Positions 43,471-63,977 of a stretch of 64,000 nucleotides of DNA are shown one piece after another (the stretch's first letter is position 1; each line of letters opens with the position of its first letter). Made by a program: the position numbers and the translations under genes. The stretch lies in NCBI GenBank assembly GCA_913774665.1, contig CAJYHN010000004.1:62001-126000 (forward strand), written 5' to 3'. Source of the DNA: an uncultured Microbacterium sp. Its GTDB lineage: Bacteria > Actinomycetota > Actinomycetes > Actinomycetales > Microbacteriaceae. The notes under the pieces were generated by a model. The model was not told where the DNA came from and ran no database searches. It saw nothing but the letters and a program-made list of their open reading frames with translations.

Positions 43471-43480
43471 CGTCCTCCCC

Positions 43481-43527
43481 TGACGAAAGCCGGGTCCGTC
43501 CGTGAGGGACGGGCCCGGCTTTCGTCA
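43481..43527. terminator. Long bidirectional hairpin
   Basis: A stem of about 20 bp (TGACGAAAGCCGGGTCCGTC against GGACGGGCCCGGCTTTCGTCA in outline) lies between the convergent SRPBCC and aldo/keto reductase genes, 10 bp from each stop. Runs of AAA and TTT in the stem suit termination both ways. Confidence 0.8.
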
Positions 43528-43535
43528 TGAGCGGG

Positions 43536-60471: not shown

Positions 60472-61386
60472 ATGGACGATGACACCGACGTGCGCCGACG
60501 AACAGGTGCGGCGTGGTTCGCTCTGCTGGGCGCGGCGGGCGGCGTGGCGGGTCTTCTGCCCTGGCTTCTGACCGGGCCGTTCCTGCCGCTGCAGAACCTC
60601 GGCGAGGGGCAGGATGCCGCGAAGGACGGGCCCTTCGTGATGCTGCCCTACAGTCAGTACGCGATCACGACCATCATCGTGCTGCTCGTCGAGGGTGGCG
60701 TCGTGGCCGGGATCATCGCACGCGCACGGCGGTCGCGCCCGGGCCTGGCCCGACCGTTCGCCGCACTCGGCGGGCTCGTCGTCGTGCAGGTCGTCGCCAT
60801 CGTGCAGACCACGGCGACCACCCGCTCGGTGCTGCAGGAGCGCGACGAGTCGGTGCTCTACCTGGTGCTGTTGACGGCCGTGGCCGTCCTGGCCGCGGTC
60901 ACGGCGTGGGTCGCCTGCGTCCTCATCGCCGCAGCGCCACGCGCGGGTGCCGGTCTCGGCCTCGTGGTGGGGGCCGCCGCGGGCGGGTCGTGGATCGCGG
61001 CGTTCCTCTTCCCGCTCTTCTCGTACACCTCTCCGTTCGAAGCGCTGCTGCCGGTGCTGCCGTACCTCGCCCCGGTGCTCGTCGGACTCGCGATCGTCTG
61101 GACGGGCGTCTCGACGGTCGGGCGGGTGCTGACCGGCATCGTCGGACTCGTGCTGGTGTGGCTCGTGCCCGCGCTCACGACGGCCATCTCCTCCGCCGCG
61201 GGAACGCGAGTTCTCGCTCGCGACCTTCCCGGCATGGCCGAGTTCGGCGGACAGGTCTTCGTCTCGGCATCCACGATGCCGGAGATCATCGTGCCGCCGC
61301 TGGTGACGACCGTGCTGGTGGCCGTGGTGGGGCTGGTCCTCCGCCGCGTCGTCGGCCGGCGCCGCACCGGGCGAACCGCGCGTTAG
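60472..61386 (+). CDS. Hypothetical polytopic membrane protein
   Basis: 304 aa with about seven helices (about 14-35, 62-85, 97-115, 123-150, 158-180, 187-225, 275-295). No motif that I recognise. ATG preceded by GGGGGA. A TAGCGT -10 box at 60439-60444 lies inside CTCCGA-TAGCG-TCGGAG, a short palindrome that may be an operator. Its TAG overlaps the stop of the convergent helicase gene by four bases. Confidence 0.78.
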   Translation: MDDDTDVRRRTGAAWFALLGAAGGVAGLLPWLLTGPFLPLQNLGEGQDAAKDGPFVMLPYSQYAITTIIVLLVEGGVVAGIIARARRSRPGLARPFAALGGLVVVQVVAIVQTTATTRSVLQERDESVLYLVLLTAVAVLAAVTAWVACVLIAAAPRAGAGLGLVVGAAAGGSWIAAFLFPLFSYTSPFEALLPVLPYLAPVLVGLAIVWTGVSTVGRVLTGIVGLVLVWLVPALTTAISSAAGTRVLARDLPGMAEFGGQVFVSASTMPEIIVPPLVTTVLVAVVGLVLRRVVGRRRTGRTAR

Positions 61387-63977
61387 AGCCGCAGCACCTC
61401 GGTGACGCGCACGATCGCCGTGCCCTCCTCCTCGGAGGCGGCGAGGTCGACCTCGGCGCGGATGCGCCAGTCGTGGTCTCCGGCGGGGTCGTCGATGATC
61501 TGCTCGACGCGCCACACGCCGTCGGAGGCGGACGACTCGTCGATGACGACGAGGGCGGAGGAGCGCGCCGCTCCCCCGGTGCCGATCTCATCGTGCTCGT
61601 CGAAGTAGCTGTCGAGAACGCCCGGCCAGTCGACATCGGGGTCGAGTTCGACGAGCTCGTCGTCCTTCTGGAGTGCGGCGAGCTGCACGCGCCGGAACAT
61701 CTCGTTGCGCACGAGCACGCCGAACGCGCGCCGGTTGGTGAGGATCGACGGCGGAGCGGGCGGAACGACCGGGGCCGTCGGGTCGTCGGCCGGGTTGATG
61801 AGCTGCTCCCACTCGTCGACGAGGCTCGAGTCGACCTGACGTACGACCTCGCCGAGCCAGGCGATCAGATCGAGCAGGTCGGGGGTCTGCGCGTCGACGG
61901 GCACGGTCTGGCGGATCGCGCGAAACGCGTCGCTGAGGTAGCGCAGCACGAGGCCCTCGCTGCGAGCGAGCTGGTACAGCGAGACGTACTCGCCGAACGA
62001 GCACGCGCGCTCGTACATGTCGCGCACGACCGACTTGGGCGACAGCTCGAAGTCGCGGATCCACGGCTGGCTGGAGGCGAACACCTCGTACGCCTGCGCG
62101 AGCAGCCGGTCGAGGGGCTTCGGCCAGGTGATCTCCTCGAGCAACTCCATGCGCTCGTCGTACTCGATGCCCTCGCGCTTCATCGCCGCGACGGCTTCGC
62201 CACGCGCGCGGAACTGCTGCTGCGACAGGATCGGGCGCGGGTCGTCGAGGGTCGACTCGATGACGCTGACGACGTCGAGCGCATAGTGCCCCGTGCCCAC
62301 CGATGACGCCGGGGGCGCGGCATCCGGCCCCCTCCCGAGCTCGACCTCGGGGTCGAGCATCTCGATCGCGGCGAGCGCGAAGGGCGAGAGGGGCTGATTG
62401 AGCGCGAAGTTCGGCTGCAGATCGACGGTGAGCCTGATGCGTGAGGGGTCGGAATCTGTCGCTTGACCCCCCTCTGAAGCGACAGTCTTCGACCCCTCAC
62501 GCGAGGGCGGGGCGACCTCGACCACGCCGGCCTGCACCAGGGTGCGGAAGATCGCGATCGCGCGGCGCGCGAGCTCGTACTGGCGGGCTCGGGGCTCGTG
62601 GTTGTCGAAGACGAGCGAGCGGACGTTCGCGAAGACGTCGCCGCCGCGCGCGATGACGTTGATGAGCATCGCGGCGCTCAGCTTCATCTGCGGCTGCAAC
62701 GGTTCGGGCTCGGCCGCGACGAGGCGGTCGTAGCTCTGCTCGGTCCAGTTGACGAAGCCCTGCGGCGCCTTCTTGCGCACGATCTTCTTCTGCTTCTTGA
62801 GGTCGTCGCCGGCCTTGGCGATCTGCGCGGCGTTCTCGATCTCGTGGTCGGGCGCCATGACGACCACGGTCCCCGCGGTGTCGTAGCCGGCCCGGCCCGC
62901 GCGTCCGGCGATCTGATGGAACTCGCGCGCCGAGAGCTGGCGCATGCGGGTGCCGTCGTACTTGGTCAGCGCCGTCATGAGCACGGTGCGGATCGGCACG
63001 TTGATGCCGACGCCGAGGGTGTCGGTTCCGCAGATGACGCGCAGCAGGCCCCGCTGGGCGAGCGTCTCGACCAGGCGCCGGTAGCGCGGCAGCATCCCGG
63101 CGTGGTGCACGCCGATGCCTGCGCGGACGTATCGCGACAGCGTCTTGCCGAAACCGGTGGTGAAGCGGAAGCCGCCGATCGCCTCGGCGATCTCGTCGCG
63201 CTGCTCGCGCCCGATGATGCGGATCGACGACAGCGCCTGCGCGCGCTCCATCGCGGCGGCCTGGGAGAAGTGCACGACGTAGACGGGCGCCTGCTTCGTG
63301 TCGAGCAGCTCCTGCACCGTCTCGTGCACGGGAGTGCGCGCGTACTCGAAGTGCAGCGGCACGGGGCGCTCGACGCCGGTCACCCGCGCGGTGGGCCGCC
63401 CGGTGCGGCGCGAAAGGTCGTCCGCGATGTCGTCGACGTCGCCGAGGGTCGCCGACATGAGGATGAACTGCGCGCGGGTCAGCAGCAGCAGCGGCACTTG
63501 CCACGCCCAGCCGCGATCGGCCTCGCCGTAGTAGTGGAACTCGTCCATGACGACCTGGTCCACGTCCGCCTCGGCCCCCTGTCGCAGGGCGAGGTTCGCG
63601 AGGATCTCGGCGGTGCAGCAGATGATCGGGGCGTCGGAGTTCACCGACGAATCGCCCGTGACCATCCCGACGTTCTCGGCGCCGAAGATGTCGACGAGGG
63701 CGAAGAACTTCTCGCTCACCAGGGCCTTGATCGGCGCCGTGTAATACGTGCGTCCACCCCGGGAGAGGGATGCCGCGTGCGCAGCGACCGCGACGAGCGA
63801 CTTGCCCGTGCCGGTCGGGGTCGACAGGATCACGTTGGCGCCCGAGACGATCTCGATGACCGCCTCGTCCTGCGCGGGGTAGAGCGTGAGGCCGCGGGAG
63901 TTCGCCCACTCGACGAAGCCCAGGTAGGCGGCATCCGGATCGGCGCCGACGGGAACGTGCTCGAGGAGGGGGGTCAC
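61383..63977 (-). CDS. Ski2-like DEAD/DEAH-box RNA helicase with DUF3516-type C-terminus
   Basis: 864 aa. Walker A LSTPTGTGKS (about 52-61), motif II MDEFHYY, motif III MSATLGD, motif VI HQIAGRAGRAGYD; then a long C-terminal region of the actinobacterial DUF3516 type. Acts on RNA, by family. GTG at 63977 lies 6 nt after GAGGCT. Residues about 493-514 (SREGSKTVASEGGQ region) come from a palindromic element inserted in frame between two beta strands (VVEVAPP and RIRLTVDLQ). Confidence 0.93.
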   Translation of the reverse strand: MTPLLEHVPVGADPDAAYLGFVEWANSRGLTLYPAQDEAVIEIVSGANVILSTPTGTGKSLVAVAAHAASLSRGGRTYYTAPIKALVSEKFFALVDIFGAENVGMVTGDSSVNSDAPIICCTAEILANLALRQGAEADVDQVVMDEFHYYGEADRGWAWQVPLLLLTRAQFILMSATLGDVDDIADDLSRRTGRPTARVTGVERPVPLHFEYARTPVHETVQELLDTKQAPVYVVHFSQAAAMERAQALSSIRIIGREQRDEIAEAIGGFRFTTGFGKTLSRYVRAGIGVHHAGMLPRYRRLVETLAQRGLLRVICGTDTLGVGINVPIRTVLMTALTKYDGTRMRQLSAREFHQIAGRAGRAGYDTAGTVVVMAPDHEIENAAQIAKAGDDLKKQKKIVRKKAPQGFVNWTEQSYDRLVAAEPEPLQPQMKLSAAMLINVIARGGDVFANVRSLVFDNHEPRARQYELARRAIAIFRTLVQAGVVEVAPPSREGSKTVASEGGQATDSDPSRIRLTVDLQPNFALNQPLSPFALAAIEMLDPEVELGRGPDAAPPASSVGTGHYALDVVSVIESTLDDPRPILSQQQFRARGEAVAAMKREGIEYDERMELLEEITWPKPLDRLLAQAYEVFASSQPWIRDFELSPKSVVRDMYERACSFGEYVSLYQLARSEGLVLRYLSDAFRAIRQTVPVDAQTPDLLDLIAWLGEVVRQVDSSLVDEWEQLINPADDPTAPVVPPAPPSILTNRRAFGVLVRNEMFRRVQLAALQKDDELVELDPDVDWPGVLDSYFDEHDEIGTGGAARSSALVVIDESSASDGVWRVEQIIDDPAGDHDWRIRAEVDLAASEEEGTAIVRVTEVLRL
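62439..62502. repeat. Intragenic palindromic element in the helicase gene
   Basis: Arms 62439-62464 and 62477-62502 are complementary at 13 outer and 8 inner bases, with a 5-bp mismatched bulge and a 12-nt loop. All three phases stay open, so the helicase frame continues through it. No second copy was seen in the window. Confidence 0.85.

Follow-up and report, generated by a model that had tools for sequence, protein, structure and literature searches.

How a long palindrome comes to lie in frame within a conserved helicase gene is the question raised by this locus, found in a window of 64,000 nucleotides (the whole stretch of DNA analysed) from an uncultured Microbacterium sp. (contig CAJYHN010000004.1). 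The palindrome reported in the first-pass annotation was recovered at 62439-62502, with arms (62439-62464 and 62477-62502) forming 23 of 26 pairs (88% complementary) around a 12-nt loop. No other inverted repeat in the window with arms of 26 nt and loops of 3-30 nt pairs as well, and none of six Markov-simulated windows reached 23 pairs, the top value being 21. The repeat ranking second in the window (43474-43535, 22/26) looks by eye like a terminator hairpin. The in-frame position within the coding sequence of a Ski2-like helicase was also borne out (Table 1). The protein, encoded on the minus strand, matches the Pfam families DUF3516 (E 3.1e-191) and DEAD (E 3.9e-19) and is related in sequence to Ski2/Mtr4 helicases, the insert falling outside the portion that can be aligned to solved Ski2-like chains. 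About 22 residues had been thought to be added; there is indeed an insertion, and the gain measured against empty orthologues is 63 nt (21 residues), the 14-nt C-rich leader and the 64-nt palindrome of the window allele replacing 15 nt of the empty alleles.

Table 1. Features of the helicase locus and of the palindromic element that it contains (positions in the window).
Feature	Position	Strand	Basis
Host gene, 864-aa Ski2-like helicase with DUF3516 domain	61383..63977	-	ORF, Pfam
Palindromic repeat element, 64 bp, type A outer boxes	62439..62502	.	inverted repeat, genomic copies
Outer box GCGTGAGGGGTC, type A	62439..62450	+	alignment of 20 genomic copies
Variable spacer, 6 nt	62451..62456	+	copy alignment
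Inner box TGTCGCTT, GTCGC nearly invariant	62457..62464	+	copy alignment
Loop, 12 nt	62465..62476	+	allele comparison
Inner box, mirror copy AAGCGACA	62477..62484	+	alignment of 20 genomic copies
Variable spacer of mirror side, 6 nt	62485..62490	+	alignment of 20 genomic copies
Outer box, mirror copy GACCCCTCACGC	62491..62502	+	alignment of 20 genomic copies
C-rich leader, coding GTCGCCCCGCCCTC	62503..62516	-	helicase-site comparison of 18 genomes

The element belongs to a repeat family. An 81-base query returned 31 matches in the window's own genome (G000) at 74-100% identity, the window copy among them, and alignment of 20 copies gave the consensus GCGTGAGGGGTC-N6-TGTCGCYT, followed by a loop of 11-12 nt and the mirror image. 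With a covariance model (R1), 67 matches corresponding to at least 34 distinct places were obtained in this genome at E<=0.001, the E-values being rough and the count a lower bound from the best 150 of 6398 candidates; further copies, for which a BLASTN-type search had been proposed, are thus present. Scoring the best 35 candidates per genome, a match was found in at least 37 of 149 genomes of the genus, of which 10 reached this limit of 35. In the Microbacteriaceae at large (best 26 candidates per genome, hence lower bounds) matches, mostly with weaker scores, occurred in at least 42 of 199 genomes and at least 29 of 85 genera, the own genome counted, and nine loci read in other genera kept the architecture while their sequence drifted. 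Among 74 copies, positions 5, 6, 10, 12 and 20 were invariant in all, and positions 8, 9 and 11 switched on both arms. The set from the own genome hinted that the spacers might be deliberately unpaired, an idea ruled out by many fully palindromic copies elsewhere. No Rfam family matched the repeat at gathering score in the 12 sources searched, where the sole Rfam match was a Guanidine-III riboswitch (L009:495-560) about 2 kb from another copy. Titles and abstract beginnings in the open-licence literature yielded no article dealing with repeats of this kind in the Microbacteriaceae and, as far as these show, the repeat is an undescribed REP-like palindromic family of the Microbacteriaceae.

Some copies occur in particular arrangements. 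Tandem arrays at L013:3343-3618 (four copies) and L014:2444-2723 (three copies) probably reflect local amplification. At C2:604716-605481 of the own genome (L017:1713-2486), the two arms of a single type A element are separated by about 0.7 kb, a stretch that contains several copies of another palindrome (TTTGCCGCACATGGTCGC...). Near-identical copies with matching inverted flanks (G000:C3:678 and C3:24971) lie near both ends of a 25.6-kb contig.

The placement of the family was studied with 111 copies mapped in eight genomes, sampled non-randomly from strong listed matches and excluding the helicase-site copies of the other seven filled genomes; genes were called with a simple codon-score caller written for the analysis. 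Fifty-two copies lay between convergent genes, 50 between tandem and six between divergent genes, two at a contig edge and one within a gene, namely the helicase copy. The family is therefore REP-like in the broad sense of a dispersed extragenic element with many copies, 110 of the 111 being outside called genes (two of them at contig edges and 21 with the 3' end of a called gene inside the element). The closest gene end was a 3' end for 94 of 108 copies, with median distances of 15 nt to 3' ends and 70 nt to 5' ends, and at 20 called gene ends the stop codon was the TGA of the element's own GCGTGAG. At the site orthologous to G000:C4:232910 (L214-L215, L220-L221), two genomes (G006 and G072) hold, by eye, a different palindrome (ATAAACGCGATT...), as if several repeat families shared gene ends.

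Such a location behind stop codons brings to mind a functional 3' element, that is, two-way terminators or stabilisers of mRNA 3' ends maintained by selection, with the type drifting along with the species. The copies have the place for it, their short median distance being accompanied by 52 of 108 in convergent context (a figure for which no expectation was computed) and by the stop codons that the element itself supplies. They also have the fold: the coding-strand RNA of the helicase palindrome reaches -41.6 kcal/mol (z -6.8), and six copies range from -41.6 to -59.5 kcal/mol. The strong mid-message hairpin foreseen in the first-pass annotation thus stands as a predicted fold, but selection for an RNA hairpin does not, since in 74 copies GU pairs were no commoner on the sense strand than AC mismatches (72 versus 92), which led us to reject RNA-level selection. 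Moreover, a U-tract of the kind that marks intrinsic terminators (at least five T in the next 10 nt) followed none of the 73 copies with a clear sense, the conservation of the boxes exceeds what a hairpin needs, and the helicase copy sits in the middle of a gene. A terminator or 3'-end role is possible in view of the strong hairpin and its place, yet as an explanation of the family it appears unlikely.

Two principal types of the element can be told apart by exact half-site patterns, GAGGGGTC for type A and GAGTCGCC for type B. The A/B half-site counts were 37/9 in the window's genome, 65/7 in G009, 0/62 in G027 and 19/29 in G058, against 0 to 2 per strand with reversed patterns as control, and the totals in the clade ran from 0 to 72 per genome, with the maximum in G009. 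When the two arms of 161 copies were typed, 90 were A/A, 60 B/B, six I/I (I for intermediate), four B/I and one B/other; none was A/B, although independent arms would be expected to give 70. Loop length tracks the type, being 11 nt in 78 of 90 type A copies and 12 nt in 56 of 60 type B copies. The concerted switch of both arms around invariant positions, together with a type set by the species, could be taken to mean that a putative DNA-binding protein recognises the mirror boxes at gene ends, the passage from A to B being a change of its specificity. This is a distinctly improbable account, because A and B copies stand side by side in genomes such as G058 and G024, and loop length and spacer, which binding would not require, change with the type.

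The copies keep their positions between species. Among the 161 copies from 16 genomes, 33 orthologous sites (32 besides the helicase) had copies in at least two genomes. Between pairs of 10 genomes, 98 site pairs were shared against 2.3 expected under random spacers, a comparison that assumes 3000 equal spacers and uses 148 copies, the other 13 of the 161 (the helicase group and synteny-selected stretches) being excluded. Agreement in type between species at these sites was 0.464, practically that obtained by shuffling types within species (0.459, with 940 of 2000 shuffles as high), meaning that it is the species, and not the site, that sets the type. Similar flanks secure the position of 23 sites; two or more types occur at 12 of these, and the pairs from the 23 sites agree in type in 23 cases and differ in 19, with 21.2 agreeing pairs expected from the species frequencies. 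The flanks of type-discordant orthologous pairs are more similar than random ones (p 8e-19; here and below, p values on site pairs count related pairs as independent). A best-side flank similarity of at least 0.5 was found in 18% of 103 discordant pairs, 26% of 88 concordant pairs and 0.00 of 1750 random pairs, so that only about one in five discordant pairs has its exact position secured.

Between these flanks the inner sequence behaves differently according to type. Orthologues of the same type retain both spacer (p 5e-5) and loop (p 4e-10), also in the 23 pairs secured by flanks (p 7e-7 and p 3e-11, respectively). All A-B orthologous pairs taken together are no more alike than random A-B pairs (spacer p 0.89, loop p 0.067), and in the 14 such pairs secured by flanks spacer similarity does not exceed chance (p 0.31) and loop similarity barely does (p 0.047). 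One A-B pair has GATTCC in common. With inner parts near chance between similar flanks, the changes from A to B look like the exchange of whole units between flanks that were kept. For the same reason, a change of the outer boxes alone, as expected of a co-evolving binding site and hinted at by single examples, was rejected for A-B pairs; it is possible for A-intermediate pairs, one of which (own C4:232910 and G024) shares 0.75 of the spacer and 0.83 of the loop, and differences of that kind may arise stepwise.

The same observations can be read as recurrent independent insertion, with A and B being two mobile subfamilies that strongly prefer the same gene ends, so that sites are re-invaded and not converted. 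The joint difference of the subfamilies in outer box, spacer and loop length agrees with this, as do the wide range of half-site totals in the clade, the inner sequence little or not shared by A-B orthologues, and the flanks of 82% of the discordant pairs, in which no clear similarity was seen. It is harder to reconcile with the discordant pairs, about a fifth, that can be aligned up to the edge of the element, with the lack of target duplication or terminal tag detailed further below, and with the helicase site, where both types occupy one place behind a similar leader. On balance, re-invasion seems to us somewhat unlikely.

The helicase site itself was inspected at single-base level in 18 genomes with helicases at least 87% similar, and in some named loci, out of the 149 genomes of the genus. 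A strong palindrome was present in three of 81 helicase linker segments (the own and 80 loci), and the 18 closest genomes comprised eight filled alleles, three of type A (G000, G016 and G083) and five of type B (G006, G058, G024, G092 and G027; the loci L022 and L023 duplicate the sequences of G027 and G058), and 10 empty ones. The alignment of orthologues proposed at the outset thus showed most of them to be devoid of the palindrome, and neither of the two circumstances named there as speaking against an insertion, a segment carried by all orthologues and an absence of further copies, was encountered. All 10 empty alleles have one identical short linker; a C-rich leader of variable length is present in the eight filled alleles and absent from the 10 empty ones. 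The right junction is shared by A and B alleles and their leaders are similar, which suggests one place of insertion. The loop of the A alleles measures 12 nt, as in the B alleles, and that of the window is identical in the G016 copy and different from those of type B. On the helicase tree, a single clade of filled genomes was rejected (p 9.6e-7), the window's genome pairing with the empty G063 and G016 with the empty G020, each with 100% bootstrap. The idea of a linked haplotype carrying the insert was also discarded, the elevation near the site being weak (0.07-0.09 versus a mean of 0.054). Differences between species in the insert were 0.286, 0.214 and 0.286 at codon positions 1, 2 and 3, against 0.081, 0.027 and 0.245 in the right flank, which is under normal constraint; this near equality within the insert indicates that the peptide seems to be little selected, the frame and the palindrome being what is kept. 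One Microbacterium isolate (3-1141-3Z, L027) has a long in-frame linker that contains, at this position, a weak inverted repeat equalled by 1 of 60 shuffles; it may be the decayed remnant of an earlier insertion.

The first-pass annotation had compared the locus with the in-frame palindromic elements of Rickettsia (RPEs), and a selfish element of that kind, coding in frame and targeting genes, would account for the reading frame, for the 21 residues gained over empty alleles and for a linker of variable length. As in RPEs, the palindromic DNA of the helicase element is read in frame within a conserved gene. The likeness did not extend to the family, which is overwhelmingly extragenic: the frequent in-frame insertion into genes that characterises RPEs came down here to one copy in 111. 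RPEs are described as elements of about 150 bp, nearly half of them within ORFs (PMC10969869), in contrast to the 64 bp of the Microbacterium repeat. As the peptide also differs between the A and B alleles, an element of the Rickettsia kind is highly improbable. In-frame palindromes in genes are also mentioned outside Rickettsia, for the GTAG/CGTC REPs (PMC3733652).

If the family moves, its mobiliser would be expected to leave traces. The RAYT transposase domain Y1_Tnp (PF01797) was found in one of 149 genus genomes and not in the window's genome, while 5 of 14 controls were positive, and RAYT was thereby ruled out as mobiliser. The sole Y1_Tnp gene (G041:C15:20980-21342, L140) belongs to a genome with no listed R1 match. 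At the ends of 160 copies, direct repeats suggestive of target duplication were not above shuffled levels for k of 2-7, with one 8-base match, and within 6 nt outside the ends the tags CGTC, GACG, GTAG and CTAC were seen 7, 5, 1 and 1 times, none consistently. No family of neighbouring genes recurred widely beside the copies, the widest, dehydrogenase-like by eye, spanning five site groups and the following ones three and two. One locus of the own genome contains a 298-aa gene (L013:2378-3274, G000:C4:227877-228770) with weak matches to the nuclease-like Pfam families MTES_1575 and DUF559, which is flanked on both sides by palindromes in G000, G016, G027, G055 and G058; gene fragments remain in G024 and G006, one element was recognised by flank homology in G009, and neither gene nor elements were seen in G063, G072 and G092. 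This gene was dismissed as an autonomous partner, being confined to one locus and having no close match in G009, the genome richest in half-sites. Carriage by viruses or plasmids was set aside as well, since viral contigs gave no exact match to the two type patterns and no plasmid matched one type A copy with its flanks.

Compared with other repeats, the family has mixed features. RUP and Correia elements are examples of MITEs. As in these, the Microbacterium repeat is short, dispersed and built of inverted repeats, with no gene of its own; it differs in showing no target-site duplication and no neighbouring gene that clearly recurs as a candidate transposase, and in its size of 63-64 bp with a centre of 11-12 nt. 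REPs lie mostly downstream of coding regions, in spacers whose neighbouring genes are in tandem or convergent, with some copies in genes (PMC3733652), and the short dispersed palindromes, their placement at gene ends and occasional in-gene copies are shared with REPs and REPINs. Unlike these, the repeat is one hairpin of 63-64 bp with two boxes per arm, carries no GTAG/CGTC end tag, has no Y1_Tnp in its genome and shows turnover of types at recurring sites. As the tests for tag and transposase failed, we class it as REP-like, outside the GTAG/CGTC REPs and the REPINs.

In summary, the repeat is probably a dispersed REP-like family of the Microbacteriaceae with in-place replacement of its copies, and its member in the helicase gene a tolerated in-frame passenger. 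According to this model, each replacement would exchange a complete copy, the simplest route being ectopic gene conversion by another copy and the alternative precise re-insertion, and switching of the template from arm to arm within the palindrome would keep the arms complementary. Template switching within inverted repeats has been described elsewhere (PMC8604942, PMC8794818). At quasipalindromes it would account for complementary arms but would not alone explain a type that follows the species. The helicase element would be translated as a linker, and the varying length of this linker among orthologues suggests that selection keeps little beyond the frame. Several findings count against the model: the exact position is not secured at most sites, neither a mobiliser nor a target duplication was found, no A/B chimera was seen among the 161 copies, though partial conversion tracts should leave some, and the inner sequence shared across types at some sites fits a stepwise change of the outer boxes. 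Turnover might also proceed by new insertion, given the other palindromes found at orthologous gene ends. A bolder version, which we put forward tentatively as having less than an even chance, is that a RAYT-less family undergoes concerted evolution across the genome, with dozens of 63-bp palindromes keeping their positions between species while whole units, the helicase copy included, are repeatedly replaced by the current type of the species through ectopic conversion or a putative palindrome-homing enzyme.

It has long been asked whether REP-like repeats spread through transposition or evolve through gene conversion, a matter reportedly discussed already by Higgins et al. in 1988. A family lacking the usual transposase offers sites at which the presence of a copy, its position and its type can each be scored on their own, and the helicase copy provides a coding site where frame and flanks fix the position. 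The repeat would also add an actinobacterial family to the REP-like repeats, the word Actinobacteria being absent from the main text of the work on GTAG/CGTC REPs (PMC3733652). If concerted evolution proves true, a protein segment of the helicase would be rewritten by a DNA process operating genome-wide.
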